From Syntrophobacter sp. SbD2 (GTDB lineage: Bacteria; Desulfobacterota; Binatia; UBA9968), in the NCBI GenBank assembly GCA_945889495.1, contig CAMDBU010000060.1:1-32487 (forward strand): DNA of 32,487 bases. Reading direction: 5' to 3'. Below the pieces are notes generated by a model. The model had not been told where the DNA came from and did no database searches. It was given only the letters and a program-made list of their open reading frames with translations. The position numbers and the translations under genes are program-made. Positions 3,877-31,426 of the stretch are shown piece after piece. Each line of letters starts with the position of its first letter. Position 1 is the first letter of the stretch.

Positions 3877-5397
3877 TTACTGTCGATCCAGGATGCGCTG
3901 AATCAGCTCCATGTTTAAGCTTCCGCGCACATGAGCGGCCAGCCGGTCGTATTGTTCGTCGGCGGAGAATTGCGCTTGGCCTGCTGTGTAGGTCTGCCCT
4001 TTGCGTTCGGCCAGTTCCTGCAAGATCGCTCGGCGCAATTCATCGTTGTGAAATAAGCCGTGGATGTAAGTGCCGATAATGTTGCCGTCGGCACTGAGCG
4101 CACCATCGCGGTCTGCGATGATTTGCCGGGACCGTTGCTCGATTAGAAACGGTTGCGCAGCGCCCTGGCCTGCCGTCCTTCCCATGTGAATTTCATAGCC
4201 GGAAATCTTCATGTCCTGCGCTCTAGCGAGCAGGCCAATGTTGGCCAAGGTGCGGGCGCGAACTTGGTGGGTCGCTTTCACTGCCCCAAAGCGGGTGGTC
4301 ACCGGTAAGAGCCCCATGCCGGTGGTCAGCGCAGTCGATGACTCGATTCGCTCTGGATCGTGGATGGATCTACTGAGCATTTGAAAGCCAGCGCAAATGC
4401 CGACGATCGGCACGCCGGCTGAAACCGCGCGGAGAATTTCCTGCTCCCGGCCGCTTTCACGGAGGTAAAGGAAATCGGCCACAGTCGCTTTGCTGCCGGG
4501 CAGAACGATCAGGTCAGGAAGGCCGAGACGGTCGCCGCTTTCGACATAGCGTAGACGCACTCGAGGTTCGCGTTCGAAGGGATCGAAGTCATCGAAGTTG
4601 CTGATATGCGGCAGAGCGATGACCGCGATGTCCAAGTCGAAGTCGCGGCGATTTTTCATAGCGTTACGTTTCTCCAACGAGACCGAATCTTCTTCGGCGA
4701 TGTGGATATCGTGATAATAGGGCACCACGCCGGCCACCGGCACGCCAGTGCGGGCTTCCAGCCAATCCAATCCCGGCGCGAGTAATGAAACGTCACCGCG
4801 AAACTTATTGACGATAAACGCTTTGACACGTTCTCTTTCCGGCGCGTCGAGCAGCTCCATGGTGCCCACCAGCGCGGCAAAGATGCCGCCGCGGTCGATA
4901 TCGGCGGCGAGCAACACCGGTGCATTGCAGTAGAGCGCGACTTTCATGTTGACCAGATCGCGTTCCTTGAGATTGATTTCTGCCGGGCTGCCGGCGCCTT
5001 CGATGACGACGACATCGTAGGCGCTACGCAGCTGGTCGAGGGATTCGGTGATCGCGCTCCAGAGTTCGGTTTTGAGTTGAAGAAAATCCGCCGCGGCGAT
5101 GCGCGTCAGCGGCTTACCGCGTAGGACGATCTGGGCATCGCAATCGCTTTCTGGTTTGATCAACACCGGATTCATCGCCACCGTCGGCGCGATGCCCGCA
5201 GCTTCGGCTTGGACGACTTGAGCGCGGCCGATCTCACCGCCGTCCGCCGTGACGAAAGAGTTAAGCGACATGTTTTGCGCTTTGAACGGCGCGACCCTTA
5301 ACCGCTGCTGTTTGAAGATGCGGCACAACGCGGTGACGAGAATGCTTTTCCCCACCGATGAGCCGGTGCCTTGGACCATTAACACTTTGGCGAGCAT
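3877..5397 (-). CDS. cobQ: Cobyric acid synthase (glutamine-hydrolysing)
   Basis: A 506-residue CobQ/CbiP. It amidates four side chains of adenosylcobyrinic acid a,c-diamide using ATP and glutamine, in the cytoplasm. The N-terminal dethiobiotin-synthetase-like domain has P-loop GTGSSVGKS (residues 10-18), FKAQNMSLNSFV and the VIEGAGSPAEINL motif. The C-terminal class I glutamine amidotransferase domain has Cys335 in IVGICAGFQM and His446 in GTYIHGLF. Length is typical. It is the last gene of the minus-strand cobalamin uptake operon, 26 bases after btuD, and so is probably under the same cobalamin riboswitch. No other corrinoid ring-synthesis gene is in view, so it may serve late synthesis or salvage with genes elsewhere. 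Confidence 0.95.
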   Translation of the reverse strand: MLAKVLMVQGTGSSVGKSILVTALCRIFKQQRLRVAPFKAQNMSLNSFVTADGGEIGRAQVVQAEAAGIAPTVAMNPVLIKPESDCDAQIVLRGKPLTRIAAADFLQLKTELWSAITESLDQLRSAYDVVVIEGAGSPAEINLKERDLVNMKVALYCNAPVLLAADIDRGGIFAALVGTMELLDAPERERVKAFIVNKFRGDVSLLAPGLDWLEARTGVPVAGVVPYYHDIHIAEEDSVSLEKRNAMKNRRDFDLDIAVIALPHISNFDDFDPFEREPRVRLRYVESGDRLGLPDLIVLPGSKATVADFLYLRESGREQEILRAVSAGVPIVGICAGFQMLSRSIHDPERIESSTALTTGMGLLPVTTRFGAVKATHQVRARTLANIGLLARAQDMKISGYEIHMGRTAGQGAAQPFLIEQRSRQIIADRDGALSADGNIIGTYIHGLFHNDELRRAILQELAERKGQTYTAGQAQFSADEQYDRLAAHVRGSLNMELIQRILDRQ

Positions 5398-5423
5398 GGT
5401 TTTCCGGCTGAATGCTAGTACGC

Positions 5424-6215
5424 TTAAGAAAACGGATGGCGCGGCACGAAGTAGCGCGGCTGCGATTCGTGGCCGGCGATTTGTTTCATCTCGACGTCGA
5501 GCAATTCTTTGATACTTGCTTCATTGATAACTTCAGCCACTGGGCCGAAACCGCGCAGTTCACCGCCGCTCAGCAGCAGTGCTTTGTCGGCGAACAGCGA
5601 CACCAAATTGATGTCATGCAGCACCGTGACGACGGCGATGCCTTCGTCCACGCATAAGCGTTTCAGCGTCGAGAGAATTTGCAATTGAAAGTTGAGATCC
5701 AAGTGCAGCGTCGGTTCGTCGAGCAGTAATATTTTCGCCGATTGAGCTAGGGCGCGGGCGATCAGCACTTTTTGCCTCTCGCCGCCGCTCAGGGTGTTGA
5801 ACTGCCGGTCGCAGAGCTCAGTTGCGGCGGTCTTCTTCAGCGCGTCGGCAATCGCAACTCTGTCCGCCGCGGTTTCGCTGCCGCGCAGTCCATGAGGGTA
5901 ACGACCGAGGGCGACCAGCTCGCGTACGGTTAAGGGAAAACTCGCCGCCGGTTGTTGGGACACGTAGGCAATGGCTTGCGCCCGCGCTTTGGGTTCGAGA
6001 GCGGCAATTGGTTGGCCGTGGAGCGTAACCACGCCAGAGTTTGGACTGAGCAGGCCGAGCATGATTTTTAGCAGAGTGGTTTTTCCTGAGCCGTTAGGCC
6101 CGATGACAGCGACCAGTTCGCCAGCCGCGACGGCAAACGAGATATCCTTCAGCAATAGCCAGCTGTTGTAGCCGAACGAAACATTGCGGACATCGAGGGC
6201 GCGCGTCGCTTCCAT
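5424..6215 (-). CDS. btuD: Cobalamin-type ABC importer ATP-binding protein (BtuD-like)
   Basis: A 263-residue ATPase of the iron-siderophore/B12 importer family. Walker A is GPNGSGKTT (residues 39-47), the Q-loop region follows as AYVSQQPAASFP, the ABC signature is LSGGERQKVLIARAL, Walker B is ILLLDEPTLHLDL, and the switch histidine is in VTVLHDINL. The usual DEPTSHLD is DEPTLHLD here. It should drive import through the BtuC-like permease encoded immediately upstream; the permease stop lies four bases before this ATG. Position in a block with a BtuB-like receptor, btuF and cobQ behind a cobalamin riboswitch argues for corrinoid rather than siderophore transport. Confidence 0.9.
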   Translation of the reverse strand: MEATRALDVRNVSFGYNSWLLLKDISFAVAAGELVAVIGPNGSGKTTLLKIMLGLLSPNSGVVTLHGQPIAALEPKARAQAIAYVSQQPAASFPLTVRELVALGRYPHGLRGSETAADRVAIADALKKTAATELCDRQFNTLSGGERQKVLIARALAQSAKILLLDEPTLHLDLNFQLQILSTLKRLCVDEGIAVVTVLHDINLVSLFADKALLLSGGELRGFGPVAEVINEASIKELLDVEMKQIAGHESQPRYFVPRHPFS

Positions 6216-6219
6216 AGCG

Positions 6220-7194
6220 TTAACCTAAATCGCTGCTCTCGTTGCGGATCAGGTAGAGGAAGATCGGCACGCCAACCAAGGAAGTCACGATGCCGACCGG
6301 CAGCTCCGCCGGTTCGATGACTATCCGCGCGGCGGCGTCGCAGAGAACCAGAAAGATCCCGCCGGTAAAGAAAGTCAGGGGAAATAGCGTCCGATGATCG
6401 GCGCCGCAGCTCAAACGGATCATATGCGGCACGATCAAGCCGACGAAGCCGATTAAGCCGGCCACCGATACCGAGATCGAAGTAAGCAGCGCGGCGAGTA
6501 CGGCGAAGATCAGTTGCACGCGGCCGGTGCGCACGCCGCTGCTCTGGGCGGTTTCTTCGCCAAGCAGCAAAACGTTTAGCTCCGGCGCGTAGTAACAGGC
6601 GGTAAGCGCGGCGATGGGAATGCAGGCAAGCGACACCCAGGTGGTGTCCCAACTGGAGCTCGAAAAGCCGCCGAGAAAGAAAAAGATCAGCGCCTTCAAC
6701 TCTTCGCCGGCCATCAACATGAAGATGGCGACCAGCGAAGAAAGAAACAGACCGACGCCCAGGCCCGAAAGCAGCAAGCGAAAGATCGAGAAGCCGCCCT
6801 GGCGGTGGCCAAAGTAGAAAACCATAGCGAGGGCGCCGAGCGATCCGCCGAAGGCGAACACGCTGACGGCGGCGAAGCTCGCCAGCGGCGACGCGAGCTT
6901 GAAGACGATGGCGGCGGCGGCACCCAAGGACGCGCCGGAGGAGACGCCGAGTAAATAGCTGTCGGCGATGGGATTGCGAAACAAACCTTGGAAGATCGCA
7001 CCCGCCAGCGCTAGACCGCCGCCGACCAAAAACGCCGAGAGCACGCGCGGTAGACGCAGGTTGAACAAGATTTCTTTATCCGTTGCCGACAGATGAAAGA
7101 AAGAGATCGGCACCGGGCCGATGCTCAAGCCGATGGCGAGGACGGCTAGGATCGCCGGCGCGATCAGCCAAGGATGCAAACCGCGGCGATTCAC
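6220..7194 (-). CDS. btuC: Cobalamin-type ABC importer permease (BtuC-like, FecCD family)
   Basis: A 324-residue inner-membrane permease with the many hydrophobic segments of the FecCD/BtuC fold. Family landmarks are LRLPRVLSAFLVGGGLALAG near residues 46-65, NPIADSYLLGVSSGASLGA, and the late GLIGFVGLIVPHMIRL, which contacts the ATPase. The initiation codon is GTG, and it overlaps the btuF stop in a GTGA arrangement, which implies coupled translation. It works with the adjacent BtuD-like ATPase and BtuF-like binding protein. The specificity assignment to cobalamin is from the operon and riboswitch, because siderophore permeases look very similar. Confidence 0.9.
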   Translation of the reverse strand: MNRRGLHPWLIAPAILAVLAIGLSIGPVPISFFHLSATDKEILFNLRLPRVLSAFLVGGGLALAGAIFQGLFRNPIADSYLLGVSSGASLGAAAAIVFKLASPLASFAAVSVFAFGGSLGALAMVFYFGHRQGGFSIFRLLLSGLGVGLFLSSLVAIFMLMAGEELKALIFFFLGGFSSSSWDTTWVSLACIPIAALTACYYAPELNVLLLGEETAQSSGVRTGRVQLIFAVLAALLTSISVSVAGLIGFVGLIVPHMIRLSCGADHRTLFPLTFFTGGIFLVLCDAAARIVIEPAELPVGIVTSLVGVPIFLYLIRNESSDLG

Positions 7195-8138
7195 TTTAAC
7201 TCCGTTGGTAACCGTTGCGCCGCTGCCGCTTCACGGAACAAGCAATTGTGCAGCTTGGCCAGCCCATCGACGAACATGATGCTGCGGCGAATGTCGGGCT
7301 CGTCGATGAAACAAAAGTTACCGTCGCGCACGCCGCGGATGGACGACCAGCCGGGACGCTTTGACAGGGTTTTTACGAAAGGCGCTTGCTCGGCGAGAAA
7401 GATCAGCACTTCGGGATTTCTCTGAATCAGCGCTTCCAAACCGATCTGTCCCGAGTCGAAGGGCAGATCGCCGAACACGTTTACACCGCCGGCCGCGCTG
7501 ACCAACCAGTCGGTGAAGGAGGCGCCGCCGACGGTGATCAGCGGCTCGGTCCACATTTGCAAGTAGGCGCGCTTTTTCGACTGGTTCTTGGCTTTGCTGA
7601 CAATCGTTTGAAAGCTCTGGCGCATGTTATCGATGAAGCTGCGCGCTTTCGGCTCTTGCCCGAGCAACTCGCCCAGCAGCAAAAAATCTTTTACCAGCCC
7701 AATCATGTTGCGCGGCCACAAACTCACCACCGAATAGCCGAGGGTTTTGAGCGGCACGGCGAAGCGCTGTTGACTCGGTCCGTTGGTAAGGATGAGATCG
7801 GGTTGCAGCTGGACGATTTTCTCCAAGTTGGCGTCGAAGCCGCCGCCGATGATGTCGACTTGCTTGCGTTGGAGTCGCTGGCGCAGTTCCAGGGGGAACT
7901 CGTCGTAACGAGTTCCCCCCTTGAGTCGCTGGCAATCGAGCAAACAAACCATCTCCGAGTTGGTTGGAACTAAGGATACAACCCGGCGTATTTCCCGTGT
8001 GACCGTCACGGTGAAGCCCAAGTCGTCGACGACGCTGCGGTCGCCCGCACCAACCGATGGCGGGCGAAGCAGCGGTACGACGAGAGCGGCAAGTAATAAA
8101 ACCCGCTTGCTCCCGAAAGATGGCCGGCGCGACGACAT
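7191..8138 (-). CDS. btuF: Cobalamin-type ABC importer substrate-binding protein (BtuF-like)
   Basis: A periplasmic class III binding protein, 315 residues from the ATG at 8138. An upstream in-frame ATG at 8219 would overlap the receptor gene by 65 bases and place 27 residues ahead of the signal sequence, so I prefer 8138. That ATG is followed by a basic N-terminus and hydrophobic VLLLAALVVPLL. The mature protein has RRVVSLVPTNSEMVCLL, the BtuF-like GGTRYDEFP, LQPDLILTN and a long connecting helix. C-terminal segments LIQRNPEVLIF and RPGWSSIRGVRDGNF are also typical. It lies 16 bases after the receptor gene and overlaps btuC by four bases. It should capture corrinoid delivered by the receptor and hand it to BtuCD. 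Confidence 0.88.
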   Translation of the reverse strand: MSSRRPSFGSKRVLLLAALVVPLLRPPSVGAGDRSVVDDLGFTVTVTREIRRVVSLVPTNSEMVCLLDCQRLKGGTRYDEFPLELRQRLQRKQVDIIGGGFDANLEKIVQLQPDLILTNGPSQQRFAVPLKTLGYSVVSLWPRNMIGLVKDFLLLGELLGQEPKARSFIDNMRQSFQTIVSKAKNQSKKRAYLQMWTEPLITVGGASFTDWLVSAAGGVNVFGDLPFDSGQIGLEALIQRNPEVLIFLAEQAPFVKTLSKRPGWSSIRGVRDGNFCFIDEPDIRRSIMFVDGLAKLHNCLFREAAAAQRLPTELK

Positions 8139-8154
8139 GGTATCGTAAATTGCG

Positions 8155-10215
8155 TCAATACCGATAAGACAATCCGGCAAACACATTCGTCCCCGGTGCC
8201 GGCACGCGGAACGATTCATTGAACGTGCCGCCGACGAGTATTCCCGAGGTTGAGTATTTTTGGTTGGTCAGGTTGTTGACTGTCACGTGAGCGGTCCATT
8301 GGCGCCATTGGTAAGCGACGCGGCTGTTGAGGACAAAGTAGTTAGCCAGTTGTTTCGATTGGTTGGGCTCGTCGCGGAACTGGAACTGCGAGCTGACGTA
8401 TTGTCCCAACAGCGAAACTGTCAGGCCGTCGACGGGCCGCAGATTGATGCCGACGCCGACCCGGTGGCGCGGCACAGCCGGCAGCTCATCGCCTTTTTGA
8501 ACCAACCGTAGCGGGTCGAAAAAGTTGAGGCCGGGAACGAAGAATTTATTCTCGAAGGTCGCCTTCGTGATCGTGTAATTGAGAAAGCCGTCGATCCAAC
8601 TATCGGGCCGGACCTTGAGCGAAATTTCCATACCACGCCGCAAAGTCCGTTTGATGTTTTCGTTGCGGCCGGTGAAAGGGTCGAGGGGGTCGGGCGCGAT
8701 AAACATAATCTCATCGCGCACCGGGGTGTAGAAAAGCGCTACCGAGGCGTCGAGCCAACTTTGCAGCCGAGCTTGCGCGCCGATTTCGTAATTGCGGCTT
8801 TTCATCGCTTTCAAGTCTGGGTTGGAGCCAAACAATCCTTGGGCAAATAGTTCGTCGACGGTGGGCATGCGCACGCCCTCCGAGTAACTGAACGACATGC
8901 TCAAATTCTTCATCGGGGTGTAGACCAGCCCGCCTTTAGGACTGACGCGGCTGTAAGTTTTGACGCCGCTGAGAGTCGGATCGATCTCGTCGGTGAAATT
9001 GAGTTTGTCCCAATCGTAACGCAGCCCAGCGCTGGCGACCAAAGAGTCGAACAGGTGAAAGCTATCGGTGATAAAGACGCCGGCGACATTTTCTTTCGTC
9101 CTACGGCGGTTTTGAAACGTGAAGTTAGGGAGAAATAGTCCGTCGTTGGCCGAGTCAAAGTTGTTGCGGCTATATTCTACTCCCAGGGTCAAGAGATTTT
9201 TCTTGCCGAGGATGACGCCGTCATGGCTCGCTTGCGCCGTCACGCCGCCGGAACGAGTGGCGGTGGCTAAAGTCGATTCGCTGCTCAACCCACGATTGAA
9301 TATCTCGATATCGTTGCGCCGGTAAAAGCTGTTGAGCGCCAGCGAAAAACCCATGGGCAGTTTCTGATTCAAATTGGCCGCGATCTGATGCAGGTTGGTT
9401 TTAGACTGATCGCCGGGGGTCAAATTGTCGTTACGGTCCACCCGCAGACGGCTTGCCGGCAGCGAACCGGCCTGGCTGATGCTATCGAGCACGCGCGTGT
9501 AAGCCAGGCTGGCGTCGGTGTTCTCGCCCAGGCGGTAGCCCAGTTTGGCGAGCAGGCGGGTGATCCCCGCGCCGGCGTGGCGCGAGTTGAACTCTTCGCG
9601 AAAGCCATTGGTCAGTTCCCTGGTGGCGCCGAAGTAGTAGTCGAAGTTGGCCAGCGGCAGCGGGCCGTCGGTGCTGAACGAATACTTCTGCCGGCCGAAA
9701 CTACCGCCACCGATATCGAAACCGAAATGGGGCCGGTCCCGGCGTCCGCGTTTGGTTGTAATGTTGATGACGCCGCCGAGCGCGTTGCGGCCAAACACCG
9801 TCGCCGTCCCCGGCAGGATTTCGATGCGCTCGACGTCGTCGATGGGAATGGAATCGAAATTGATCGTGTTGAAGTCCGGCTCGTTGATGCGCACGCCGTC
9901 GACGAACACGCTGGTCGCCGTCACCGGTTGGCCGTTGAAGCCGCGCAGATCGATGGTTTTCTGAAACTCGTTGCCGACCGCGTCATGGGCGACGATGCCG
10001 GTTTGATATTCCAAGACTTCCTGGATGTTGCGCGCGCCAAGATTTTTTATCTCCTCGGCGGTGACGACGATCACTTTGCCGGGAACCTGACTGGCCGGTT
10101 GCTCGACATCGCGCAAGCGCGTCGAGGTCACCACCACCGGCGGCAACGTATCTTGGGCGTGCGACAACGCTGGCGCGCCCAGCAAAAATAGTAAGACTAA
10201 ACCCCGTGCTTTCAT
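8155..10215 (-). CDS. btuB: TonB-dependent outer-membrane receptor (BtuB-like)
   Basis: A receptor of 686 residues from the ATG at 10215; the frame also has a TTG one codon earlier, but the GGAGG site spaced five bases away fits the ATG. Residues 1-20 are a signal peptide ending SHA. A TonB box LPPVVVTS follows directly (about 24-31), then the plug domain with LRGFNGQPVTATSVFVDGV and RIEILPGTATVFGRNALGG. The remainder is a beta-barrel with alternating strands and a C-terminal aromatic (AGLSYRY). TonB-dependent receptors carry vitamin B12, siderophores or sugars. Cobalamin is inferred from the riboswitch directly upstream and the btuFCD-cobQ genes downstream. The first gene of this operon. Confidence 0.92.
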   Translation of the reverse strand: MKARGLVLLFLLGAPALSHAQDTLPPVVVTSTRLRDVEQPASQVPGKVIVVTAEEIKNLGARNIQEVLEYQTGIVAHDAVGNEFQKTIDLRGFNGQPVTATSVFVDGVRINEPDFNTINFDSIPIDDVERIEILPGTATVFGRNALGGVINITTKRGRRDRPHFGFDIGGGSFGRQKYSFSTDGPLPLANFDYYFGATRELTNGFREEFNSRHAGAGITRLLAKLGYRLGENTDASLAYTRVLDSISQAGSLPASRLRVDRNDNLTPGDQSKTNLHQIAANLNQKLPMGFSLALNSFYRRNDIEIFNRGLSSESTLATATRSGGVTAQASHDGVILGKKNLLTLGVEYSRNNFDSANDGLFLPNFTFQNRRRTKENVAGVFITDSFHLFDSLVASAGLRYDWDKLNFTDEIDPTLSGVKTYSRVSPKGGLVYTPMKNLSMSFSYSEGVRMPTVDELFAQGLFGSNPDLKAMKSRNYEIGAQARLQSWLDASVALFYTPVRDEIMFIAPDPLDPFTGRNENIKRTLRRGMEISLKVRPDSWIDGFLNYTITKATFENKFFVPGLNFFDPLRLVQKGDELPAVPRHRVGVGINLRPVDGLTVSLLGQYVSSQFQFRDEPNQSKQLANYFVLNSRVAYQWRQWTAHVTVNNLTNQKYSTSGILVGGTFNESFRVPAPGTNVFAGLSYRY

Positions 10216-10280
10216 CAAACCCTCCTTCTCCCGCGAAAGGGGAACGTTGTGGCGGAGCGGACAGGTCTCCTGGCTTGAGC

Positions 10281-10357
10281 TTTAAGGCCGTGGTCGTGCT
10301 CGTTTCTCGTGCTCGGAAATCCCTTCCAACGAACACGATCGCGAACCACGATCACGA
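10281..10357 (-). repeat. CGTG(N)TCG word-repeat hairpin inserted in the btuB riboswitch
   Basis: A 77-nt insertion relative to the tonB riboswitch. It consists of near-repeats such as cgtggtcgtgctcg, tctcgtgctcgg, cgaacacgatcgcg and accacgatcacg. The left and right halves are imperfectly complementary (outer cgtggt with accacg, inner ggaaat with cccttcc-like pairing), so it can form one long stem that leaves the flanking riboswitch helices together. Confidence 0.6.
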
Positions 10358-10385
10358 TTTTACCTACTCACCGCGCCTTCCCACC

Positions 10386-10454
10386 CGCCGATTTTGGATT
10401 TTAGATTTTCGATTTTGGATTAAAGCCAAATTCGTCGATCCGAAATGCAAAACT
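10386..10454 (-). repeat. GATTTT word-repeat inserted in the btuB riboswitch
   Basis: An AT-rich insertion of about 69 nt between the GTCACTG and GGGAAGGC boxes. On the plus strand it reads as serial variants of gattttgg, gattttag, gattttc and gattttggatt, followed by a less repetitive part ending gcaaaact. Its base composition contrasts sharply with the GC-rich surroundings. The sister riboswitch has only a few bases at this position. Confidence 0.65.
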
Positions 10455-10516
10455 GGCTTGAGCAGTGACTTTGTTGCAGCTTTCGTAGCTCTTACAGTTG
10501 CGGGGCAGCAGAGGAG

Positions 10517-10593
10517 TCCCCGGAAAGTATGAAGGATGAAATAGGAAGGATGAATTATTCATCCCTCCGCCTTTTGCCTTCCGCCTTTCCGCG
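10517..10593 (-). repeat. GGATGAA / GGCGGAA word-repeat inserted in the btuB riboswitch
   Basis: A 77-nt insertion between the two strands of the stem AGAGG...CCTCT. It contains two word types: gaaggatgaaataggaaggatgaa with a palindrome ggatgaattattcatcc, and the pyrimidine words ccgccttttgccttccgcctttcc. The palindrome has eight-base arms around one base. The insertion replaces what is normally a seven-base conserved loop. Confidence 0.65.
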
Positions 10594-10653
10594 TCACCTC
10601 TTTCCCTTAGTGCGCTCTGCGGTTGATAAGACTGACTCGATGCCTCCTTAGGT

Positions 10654-11370
10654 TCAGCGGTTATTGTTCGACAGCTGGAACTCGATCGGTACTTTGACCC
10701 AGGTTTCGATGGGCCGGCCATCGGCGTGGGCCGGCACGAAGCGCCACTTCTTGAGCGCTTCGCTGGCGGCCTGGTCGAGCATACCGTGGCCGGAGCTGCT
10801 GTTGACCTCGACGGCTTTGGCTCTGCCCTCGGCGTCGACTAGCACGCGCAACAACACCCGGCCTTCTCTACCGGCGCGCCGGGCGCTGTCGGGGTAATGG
10901 GGTTGCGGCGTGTCGCGATAGCGGGCTTGAGTGACTATCGCTCCGCCCTGCCCCGTTCCAGTGCCATCGCCATTGCCGGAACCCGTACCCGCTCGTAGCG
11001 CGGTTGCATGATTTCTCGCCGCTTCGACGCCAGGTGACAAAATATCAGCGTGGTTATTTGACGGGCTTGCCACCGCCACACCGACGATGGACGTGACGAT
11101 CTTGTCGCTGGCAACTGACGGAGCTTCGGTTACGGGAGTTGGCGCGGCGACGGGTGTCGGATTGGGCGCGGCGGCAGCGGTGCGCTTAATCGTAGTCGCC
11201 TTGGCGGTTTTTGTTGCGCCGGCGTTACCACCCGGCTCGTTGGCAGACTCAAGCGGCAGGATCGCCACCACGATGGCGCGCTCCGGCGCCGACACGTTGA
11301 ACGCGACGTGAATCAGCAACGCCGCCCCATGGACGGCAAAGGATAAGAAAAAAAATAGTGCCAGCTTCAT
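10654..11370 (-). CDS. tonB: Energy transducer TonB
   Basis: A 238-residue TonB-family protein. Residues 3-24 form the inner-membrane anchor (LALFFFLSFAVHGAALL). A low-complexity Ala/Thr/Pro and Gly-rich spacer follows (about 45-145, including GTGSGNGDGTGTGQGG) that would cross the periplasm. The TonB_C domain occupies the last 85 residues or so: YPDSARRAGREGRVLLRVLV, VNSSSGHGMLDQAASEALKK and WRFVPA. It should carry proton-motive energy to the BtuB-like receptor. ExbB and ExbD are not in the window. It has its own cobalamin riboswitch upstream, so its expression is tied to corrinoid need, which suggests a dedicated transducer rather than the general one. Confidence 0.9.
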   Translation of the reverse strand: MKLALFFFLSFAVHGAALLIHVAFNVSAPERAIVVAILPLESANEPGGNAGATKTAKATTIKRTAAAAPNPTPVAAPTPVTEAPSVASDKIVTSIVGVAVASPSNNHADILSPGVEAARNHATALRAGTGSGNGDGTGTGQGGAIVTQARYRDTPQPHYPDSARRAGREGRVLLRVLVDAEGRAKAVEVNSSSGHGMLDQAASEALKKWRFVPAHADGRPIETWVKVPIEFQLSNNNR

Positions 11371-11451
11371 CCGAGCTCACTACTGGCCTCTGAGGGTTTT
11401 AGGAAAAGTTATGCAACCTTTCTCTCTTCTCCGGAGAGGCTGGTGTAATCA

Positions 11452-11596
11452 CCCTAGGTAGGTTTCCTGGCTCAGGCTTGATTCTACTCGCCGCGCCTTC
11501 CCATTCCCTTGAACAGTGGCTGAGTTGCGGCTTTCGTGGCCTTTACAGTGGCGGGACCGCGCCGGAATTGCACCGGACTTCCCTGAGAACCTAGGG
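11452..11596 (-). promoter_or_regulatory. Cobalamin riboswitch upstream of tonB
   Basis: A compact 145-nt element on the minus strand. The closing helix is a perfect eight-base pairing of 11589-11596 (ccctaggt on the minus strand) with 11452-11459. Boxes in order are GGGAAGTCCGGTGCAATTCC, GCGGTCCCGCCACTGTAA, GCCACGAAAGCC, GCCACTG, GGGAAGGCGCGG, GAGTAG and GAGCCAGGAAACCT. About 80 nt separate it from the tonB ATG and contain complementary words (GCCTCT and AGAGGC) that could form an expression platform. It should lower tonB expression when adenosylcobalamin is abundant. Confidence 0.93.
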
Positions 11597-11618
11597 CTGT
11601 GACTAAATGTAGGCGGAA

Positions 11619-23398: not shown

Positions 23399-24499
23399 AT
23401 GATTGAACGGCGCAAAACCAGACAAATTGAACTAGGCAAAGTGAAAGTCGGCCGCGATGCGCCGATCACCGTCCAGTCGATGACCAAGACCGACACCCGC
23501 GACGTGCGTGCCACGGTGCAACAGATCTGGTCGTTGGAAGCCGCCGGCTGCGAAATCGTCCGCTGCGCCGTGCCGGTGCGCGAGGCGGCGGAGCAATTGG
23601 GCGAGATCAAGAAAAAAATTCGCATTCCTTTAGTCGCCGACATTCACTTCAACTACAAGCTGGCGCTGATCGCCATTGAGCAGGGGGTCGACGGGTTGCG
23701 CCTCAACCCCGGCAACATCGGCGCGCGCAAGTATGTCGAGGAAGTGGTCAAAGCGGCGTCGGAAAGAAAAATTCCCATCCGCATCGGCGTCAACGCCGGC
23801 TCGCTGGAAAAAGATTTATTACAAAAATACAACGGCCCCACCGCCGAGGGTATGGTCGAGAGCGGCCTGCGCCACATTCATATACTCGAAGATGTCGGTT
23901 ACGAGGAAATAAAAATTTCTCTCAAAGCTTCCGATCCGCTGATGATGATCGAGGCCTACCGCATGCTCGCCGACAAAGTTGATTACCCGTTTCATCTGGG
24001 CGTCACCGAAGCCGGCACGCCGGGCATCGGCACGATCAAATCCGCCGTCGGTCTAGGCACGCTCTTGGCCGAAGGCATTGGCGACACCATTCGGGTCTCG
24101 CTGGCTGCCGATCCGGTGGAAGAAGTGCGCGTCGGTCTGGAAATTCTAAAAGCCTTGAAGCTGCGTAAGGGCGGCATGACGTTTGTCGCTTGTCCGTCCT
24201 GTGGCCGCGCCGATGTCGATCTAGTTTCTCTCGCGAAAGCGGTGGAGCAGCGCATGCTGCCCTACAGCAATCATAACATCCACGTCGCGGTGATGGGCTG
24301 CGAAGTCAACGGCCCCGGCGAAGCGCGGGCCGCCGATCTCGGCGTCGCCGGCGGCAAGGGCATCGGTCTGATCTTCAAACGCGGCGAAGTGATCCGCAAA
24401 GTTCCCGAAGCGCAAATCGTCGACGCGCTGATGGAAGAAGTGGCCAAGTTCGCCGCCGAAATGGAAACAGCCCAAGGCAAAATGCAAAGTGCAAATTGA
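23399..24499 (+). CDS. ispG: 4-hydroxy-3-methylbut-2-enyl diphosphate synthase (flavodoxin/ferredoxin)
   Basis: A 366-residue IspG/GcpE that reductively converts methylerythritol cyclodiphosphate to HMBPP in the MEP isoprenoid pathway. The TIM-barrel part includes TVQSMTKTDTRD, LVADIHFNYKLA and RLNPGNIG. The [4Fe-4S] cluster is set by Cys265 and Cys268 (ACPSCGR) and Cys301 (MGCEVNGPGEA), with Glu308 as fourth ligand. The last few residues (GKMQSAN) are encoded by the TGCAAA word repeat that fills the gap to proS, so the repeat has extended the C-terminus. A near-consensus promoter ends seven bases before the ATG and there is no ribosome binding site. Confidence 0.96.
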   Translation: MIERRKTRQIELGKVKVGRDAPITVQSMTKTDTRDVRATVQQIWSLEAAGCEIVRCAVPVREAAEQLGEIKKKIRIPLVADIHFNYKLALIAIEQGVDGLRLNPGNIGARKYVEEVVKAASERKIPIRIGVNAGSLEKDLLQKYNGPTAEGMVESGLRHIHILEDVGYEEIKISLKASDPLMMIEAYRMLADKVDYPFHLGVTEAGTPGIGTIKSAVGLGTLLAEGIGDTIRVSLAADPVEEVRVGLEILKALKLRKGGMTFVACPSCGRADVDLVSLAKAVEQRMLPYSNHNIHVAVMGCEVNGPGEARAADLGVAGGKGIGLIFKRGEVIRKVPEAQIVDALMEEVAKFAAEMETAQGKMQSAN

Positions 24500-24560
24500 A
24501 AAATGCAAAATAAAGAAAGAGACTCGGCAATTTTGACTTTTGCATTTTGCAATTTTCAAT
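24477..24560 (+). repeat. TGCAAA word repeat in inverted arrangement (ispG-proS)
   Basis: The left half holds ggcaaaatgcaaag, tgcaaattg and aaaaatgcaaaa; the right half holds the complements ttgacttttgcattttgc and aattttcaat. The halves can pair imperfectly. It overlaps the final codons of ispG and ends 18 bases before proS. It is AT-rich in contrast to both genes. Confidence 0.6.
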
Positions 24561-27056: not shown

Positions 27057-27103
27057 CGTCGCTGTCGCGACGTATCTCAAATTCCAAATTTCAGATTTCA
27101 AAC
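27056..27103 (+). repeat. Hairpin at pyrF stop plus AAATTTC word repeat
   Basis: A perfect hairpin acgtcgc-tgtc-gcgacgt (27056-27073) begins at the last base of the pyrF stop. It is followed by words ctcaaattcc, aaatttcag and atttcaaac (27076-27103). This 57-base gap separates convergent pyrF and thiD. A bidirectional terminator is possible, but neither side has a T-run. Confidence 0.45.
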
Positions 27104-27113
27104 TTCGGAACGG

Positions 27114-31372: not shown

Positions 31373-31394
31373 TCGGATGTTCGGAATTTCTCCC

Positions 31395-31409
31395 GCAAAG
31401 GCGCAAAGT
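31395..31409 (+). repeat. CGCAAAG word repeat
   Basis: The 15 bases cgcaaaggcgcaaag resemble the 18470 site and the arms of the 23236 inverted repeat. They sit just ahead of the ribosome binding site of the next gene, within its probable leader. Confidence 0.5.
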
Positions 31410-31426
31410 GCGGAAAGGAAAAAGTC

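Follow-up and report, generated by a model that had tools for sequence, protein, structure and literature searches.

Can a cobalamin riboswitch still serve as a genetic switch when three of its loops, one of them a conserved tertiary-contact loop, have been filled with repeat-like sequence? The question is raised by the btuB leader in the window, by which we mean the whole 32,487-nucleotide stretch of DNA analysed here. Scanning the window with Rfam cmscan returned two RF00174 matches, both on the minus strand and each covering model positions 1-189 (gathering score 31.5). A sequence-only reading of the same DNA had taken the btuB leader for a cobalamin riboswitch, and the covariance model bears this out. 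On the minus strand, the order is riboswitch, tonB, riboswitch, btuB, binding protein, permease, ATPase and CobQ/CobB-like gene, with the following features:

11440-11609, minus strand: sister cobalamin riboswitch in the tonB leader, uninterrupted (cmscan 95.1 bits)
10654-11370, minus strand: tonB, 238 aa (Pfam TonB_C)
10243-10630, minus strand: btuB-leader cobalamin riboswitch with three inserts (RF00174, cmscan 46.5 bits, model 1-189)
8155-10215, minus strand: btuB-like TonB-dependent receptor, 686 aa (Pfam Plug and TonB_dep_Rec_b-barrel)
3877-8219, minus strand: periplasmic binding protein, FecCD permease, ABC ATPase and CbiA/GATase_3 (CobQ/CobB-like) protein, downstream (Pfam)

By their Pfam content, the genes downstream of the btuB-leader riboswitch (receptor, FecCD permease, ATPase, binding protein and CobQ/CobB-like protein) belong to B12 transport or synthesis. 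The two riboswitches stand about 1.1 kb apart in a single operon, and most of the order's genomes with RF00174 matches retain the pair. In several genomes, gyrB adjoins the btuB locus on the same contig, which supports one orthologous locus across genomes.

The btuB element exceeds its tonB sister at three places, all in the stretch from the P3 box to the B12 box. L4 measures 97 nt against 23 nt (an excess of 74 nt), the hairpin after GUCACU (GYCACU) 87 nt against 18 nt (an excess of 69 nt, or 59 nt when compared with the commoner 28-nt form), and the segment before the B12 box 107 nt against 30 nt (an excess of 77 nt). The L4 T-loop holds one of the insert sites, and the P6 extension holds the other two. 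Earlier lengths of 69 and 77 nt for the two P6 sites agree with ours, while the 77 nt given for L4 is corrected to 75 nt, the length of the insert proper. That the three inserts fold on themselves, look like repeats and occupy separate loops also held up: their RNA MFE z-scores were -4.4 (L4), -2.3 (second site) and -1.9 (third site), calculated against 100 dinucleotide shuffles for window segments with flanks, and the words differ among the three. In transcript order, the parts are as follows:

10594-10601, minus strand: P4 5' strand and U-G-A, the 5' part of the L4 T-loop
10519-10593, minus strand: 75-nt L4 insert with GCGGA/GAAAGG words and a perfect central hairpin (dispersed family in its own genome)
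10510-10518, minus strand: G-A-C-U (R-A-N-N of the T-loop) and P4 3' strand CCUCU
10500-10509, minus strand: P5/L5 hairpin GCUGCCCCGC, the kissing loop, intact (L5 consensus from PMC10653944)
10383-10462, minus strand: distal hairpin of the P6 extension, expanded by an ATTTTGG-word insert (dispersed family)
10285-10361, minus strand: 77-nt insert before the B12 box, with CGTGATCG/CGAGCACGA words (dispersed family)
10259-10276, minus strand: B12 box AAGCCAGGAGACCUGUCC (from sequence)
10220-10242, minus strand: P13-like hairpin CCCCUUUCGCGGGAGAAGGAGGG with L13 (GCGGG, 10230-10234) and the Shine-Dalgarno AAGGAGGG

The stretch AGCCAGGAGACC at 10259-10276 is what we take, by name and consensus, to be the true B12 box, which the sequence-only reading had misplaced. 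All T-loop residues (U-GNR-A plus the two bulged nucleotides closing P4) are present in the window element, split by 75 nt.

One insert had also been thought to replace the kissing loop. According to the accessible part of PMC10653944, this loop is L5, with the consensus UCCCG, and it kisses L13 of the expression platform. The interrupted loop is instead L4, the T-loop of the published description, and the L5 loop UGCCCCGC of the window element is untouched by inserts. Its CCCGC is the exact complement of GCGGG in the loop of the ribosome-binding-site hairpin, and the pairing CCCGC:GCGGG can form. Across the order, L5 is identical in all 28 btuB-type elements; the platform reads GCGGG in 26 of them and GUGGG in two (G011, G017), leaving L5-L13 pairing possible in 28 of 28. 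Because L5 is invariant, the kissing pair rests on complementarity rather than covariation. An alternative assignment, in which the GGUG..CC hairpin of L4 was treated as L5 and its complement sought in the ribosome-binding-site hairpin, was dropped on the strength of the UCCCG given for L5 in the excerpt of PMC10653944.

A further Shine-Dalgarno-like (A)AGGAGG lies at window positions 10643-10650, and many btuB-type leaders likewise carry one about 40-45 nt upstream of P3. In the rows read, no start codon stood at a usual distance from it. In the core-mismatch comparison, some upstream rows come from a different genome, and we use from it the core-mismatch counts only. As a rival of the true Shine-Dalgarno, the motif could pair with the 5' arm of the P13 hairpin.

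RF00174 matches were found in 20 of 25 genomes of the window's family and in 29 of 35 genomes of the order. All 53 order matches were parsed, giving 25 tonB-type and 28 btuB-type elements; these labels were set by the L5 block, and none of the 53 fell outside its two patterns. The downstream frame bears out the btuB label in all 28 cases; the tonB label follows the L5 block. L4 length is bimodal, with 21-23 nt in 43 elements and 74-169 nt in ten, and all ten long-L4 carriers are btuB-type and belong to the window's family, where they make up ten of 20 btuB-type elements. At the second site, 11 elements (seven btuB-type, four tonB-type) have 66-96 nt and 42 have 17-29 nt; at the third, three have 85-107 nt and 50 have 29-52 nt. 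The element of G028 has about 22 extra nucleotides just before GCCACU. In four relatives, the RF00174 match started inside the L4 insert and was extended by hand. A class-wide screen showed, among the matches listed outside the window's family, none longer than 241 nt, with unlisted matches outside the order covered by 28 genomes (hand tally). Span is a poor screen for L4 inserts, however, because the carriers G007 and G016 span just 218 and 207 nt, and such inserts may occur elsewhere in the class.

The insertion point is the same in all ten L4 carriers: U-G-N precedes an insert of 52-147 nt, and R-A-N-N follows it. R-A stands after the insert in nine of the ten, G011 having U-A, and it is found at that position in all 43 uninterrupted L4 loops; six uninterrupted tonB-type loops of a third family have U-U in place of U-G. 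The P4 strands are complementary in all ten carriers, with 50 of 50 pair cells standard. The third P4 pair is G-C in five carriers and A-U in five, and has therefore changed on both sides across the insert. This covariation across the interruption shows that the outer stem has been kept. Long loops at the same places in relatives, together with a pair covarying across them, are what the sequence-only reading had named as speaking against insertion; both were found, but so were members of the family without inserts, because of which the covariation leaves the inserts real. Thermodynamic folding predicts P4 with a probability of 0.71-0.99 in seven carriers (0.99 in the window element) and with low values in G014 (0.41), G010 (0.16) and G013 (0.00); the uninterrupted G026 and G029 are also low (0.21 and 0.23). 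A two-pair P5 was predicted in none of the 28 btuB-type elements by plain folding. Among the L4 folds, z-scores calculated with flanks were weak in G024 (-0.5), G013 (-1.5), G023 (-1.5) and G010 (-1.6).

The repeat nature of the inserts was assessed by genome search for the window genome and by shared words for the other genomes. At E <= 1, the second-site insert has at least 56 own-genome matches including itself, and at least 44 besides itself at E <= 1e-3; examples show two ATTTTGG-type arms flanking a middle, and they lie next to long open frames or in the gaps separating them. The third-site insert has at least 41 matches including itself at E <= 1 and at least 17 besides itself at E <= 1e-3. 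For the L4 insert, there are 17 including itself at E <= 1 and four besides itself at E <= 1e-3, which hints faintly at a many-copy dispersed repeat. Simple word counts in 400 kb of own genome against single mononucleotide shuffles were low and barely above the shuffles (2/0, 7/2, 8/3, 1/0, 0/0, 3/1), and the repeat claim therefore rests on the own-genome insert searches.

Across the elements, raw word counts, taken without shuffle control, place ATTTTGG words in four L4 inserts (G007, G010, G014 and G016) and in seven second sites. By the same counts, CGTG/CGAGCACGA words occupy one second site and three third sites. L4 of G002, G013 and G016 holds CCCTC/GAGGG words, which also turn up in the second sites of the two elements of G013. 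GCGGA/GAAAGG words belong to L4 of G000, G011 and G023; G024 joins this set only through its alignment with G023. The L4 insert of G016 looks nested, with ATTTTGG words inside an outer CCCTC-type stem. Insert content differs even within the window's genus, between G010 (JAERMN010000114.1, Deltaproteobacteria bacterium isolate CoA_1_bin.89) on one side and G000 and G011 on the other, and mean column identity among six L4 inserts is 54 percent. Of the 42 short second-site hairpins, 16 belong to the CCTGAG..TCGAAGG type, a motif with 12 occurrences in 432 kb of own genome against none in the shuffle. The GAGCC..GGCTC type, in turn, was found 0 times in the 432-kb own-genome sample against nine times in shuffles, and not every peripheral hairpin is therefore a dispersed repeat. 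The tonB-type and btuB-type elements of G013 carry nearly identical CCCCCTCTTTC..GAAAGAGGGGG hairpins at their second sites.

The L4-insert carriers show no decay of the core. Over 52 core positions, the ten carriers show 12 mismatches to consensus against 15 in ten uninterrupted members of the family, and eight members of other families show four. G011 has the most core changes among the carriers (four), plus the U in place of R after the insert. Behind nine of the ten carriers, btuB reads without a stop for 619 residues or more in the available sequence; in G013 it stops after 70. In each of the 16 elements with inserts, fewer core-insert base pairs were expected than the mean for shuffled inserts, and in nine of them fewer than in any of the 25 shuffles; the window element has 7.7 pairs against 50.1 (sd 11.1) with shuffled inserts. 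These predicted folds show that the rods need not disturb the core, a matter of compatibility and not of selection, because palindromic repeats fold on themselves anyway.

The history of the L4 insert was traced on a gyrB tree of 30 rows, 26 of them labelled (G003 and G020 absent). The insert label needs four changes (three to four over bootstrap trees; at least three by starred branches), against a mean of 8.2 for shuffled labels, and two of 500 shuffles were as low. The changes fall on G002, on G016, on G013 with G014, and on the group G000, G007, G010, G011, G023 and G024. The BtuB protein tree (27 rows, G013 left out) was rejected as a species tree for its two deep groups, its long branches and the placement of G034, from another family, beside G011; there, the label takes six changes and is hardly clustered, 48 and 59 of 500 shuffles being as low. 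Both trees leave gains and losses of the insert unseparated. The two deep groups of BtuB proteins in the order do not follow the gyrB tree, which would fit replacement of the receptor gene, in some genomes, downstream of a leader that stayed conserved; the long branches make us unsure of this picture.

The intact core, the open btuB frames and the low core-insert pairing together favour a working B12 translational off-switch that tolerates palindromic-repeat rods in its peripheral loops, and we consider this probable and prefer it to decay or tuning. Upon binding cobalamin, as we presume the element does, L5 (CCCGC) would kiss L13 (GCGGG), and this contact would steady the P13 hairpin and thereby hide the btuB Shine-Dalgarno. 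The three inserts would be copies of dispersed palindromic repeats that arrived by insertion in loops tolerant of length change, the L4 copy exactly between N and R of the U-G-N-R-A motif. They would be extruded as self-contained rods, leaving the core helices and the kissing pair free and the split T-loop presumably preserved.

The sequence-only reading had left the choice between decay and tolerance, and our data lean towards the latter. Had repeats landed in a switch that is now decaying, ligand control of btuB would be lost or nearly so while the core had not had time to erode. The window element does have the lowest bit score of the 53 order matches, one insert lies inside the conserved T-loop, the relatives G009 and G022 (98 and 96 percent complete) have no RF00174 match at all, and G011 has its four core changes. 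The low score, however, is partly accounted for by insertion cost, and L4 inserts occur in ten genomes of several genera and have diverged widely, while the 52 core positions are nearly invariant, P4 co-varies across the insert and nine of ten receptor frames stay open; we consider decay distinctly unlikely. That the long loops are ordinary variable riboswitch helices, slowly grown and never inserted, is very unlikely. The P6 extension is indeed described as strongly variable in length (PMC9600662) and variable insertions as forming stem-loops (PMC2258182), in the parts of both papers available, but L4 lengths fall into two separate modes and the same words recur in different loops, in different genomes and elsewhere in the window genome.

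The rods might also have been put to use, tuning the switch by slowing co-transcriptional folding or by providing an RNase III site or a weak terminator. L4 inserts are found in ten of 28 btuB-type and none of 25 tonB-type elements, even though four of the 25 tonB-type elements take second-site inserts; the site persists on the gyrB tree while insert content turns over within one genus. The inserts have no sequence in common, though, terminator-like matches in the region number four where 2.4 (sd 1.6) are expected, and the ten-to-none contrast is weakened by the relatedness of the genomes, so that such tuning appears unlikely. Beyond the tolerated-rod off-switch that we prefer, we raise tentatively, as a possibility, that palindromic repeats in this family settle preferentially in the loops of structured RNAs, and most of all inside the L4 T-loop of the btuB riboswitch. 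Repeats would land there and be swapped repeatedly, with the two parts of the T-loop coming together again around a rod that can reach about 150 nt and the rod becoming part of the switch.

Relative to the RF00174 AdoCbl riboswitch, the window element is the same in its whole model, L5, L13-type hairpin, B12 box and B12-uptake gene context, and differs in the 75 nt inside the L4 T-loop and the two repeat inserts of the P6 extension. Variation in P6-extension length (PMC9600662) and variable insertions forming stem-loops (PMC2258182) are already known, as far as the accessible text of these papers goes. The latter, by Barrick and Breaker (2007), describes in its accessible part stem-loops at fixed sites that spare the core and a GNR triloop interrupted at a single position by a helix; in contrast to the insertions described there, the inserts in the window's family resemble dispersed genomic repeats, of a family that differs from genome to genome. 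A literature search short on subscription papers turned up no published case of dispersed repeats within the loops of a riboswitch, and this arrangement may perhaps be new. The nearest case, from the available part of PMC3049150, is a pneumococcal BOX element between two T-box riboswitches, a leader that in its authors' view still works. It is likewise an interspersed repeat within a riboswitch leader, but lies between aptamers, while the window repeats lie inside loops of one aptamer. With MITEs and other palindromic intergenic repeats of bacteria, described in the accessible portion of PMC10969869 as dispersed, palindromic and mostly non-coding, the inserts share these three traits.

The family offers ten natural riboswitches in which the same position of a conserved tertiary-contact loop bears widely differing rods, and alongside them relatives and same-operon sisters that lack the interruption. 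With this series, one can ask whether a split T-loop functions, how far an aptamer tolerates internal growth and whether dispersed repeats are a source of variable helices in structured RNAs. It also carries a warning: searches that go by length, or that apply a covariance model locally, can overlook such switches or cut them short, as the matches in four relatives illustrate.

Vioque is said to have found, in 1997, STRR repeats inside the RNase P RNA of heterocyst-forming cyanobacteria. Like the window inserts, these are short genomic repeats inside a structured RNA gene; unlike them, they are tandem heptamers, in RNase P RNA and not in a riboswitch. When we screened tmRNA and RNase P RNA, neither showed the riboswitch insert repeats. 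Of 27 tmRNA matches over the cut-off, 26 span 343-354 nt and one 262 nt. The RNase P RNA pattern was found in 21 of 30 loci, with a P12 of 64-98 nt in four and 12-34 nt in the other 17. The long-P12 loci (L146 in G019, L150 in G013, L152 in G014 and L156 in G025) have CCGTGAAA..TTTCACGG-like ends, which were found nowhere else in 970 kb of DNA; the long P12 is therefore no evidence for the same process. In the window itself, other short word-repeat stretches lie near or between open frames at 2678-2707, 24477-24555, 27077-27106 and 31394-31418, and in that at 24477-24555, GCAAAAT and ATTTTGC arms face each other.
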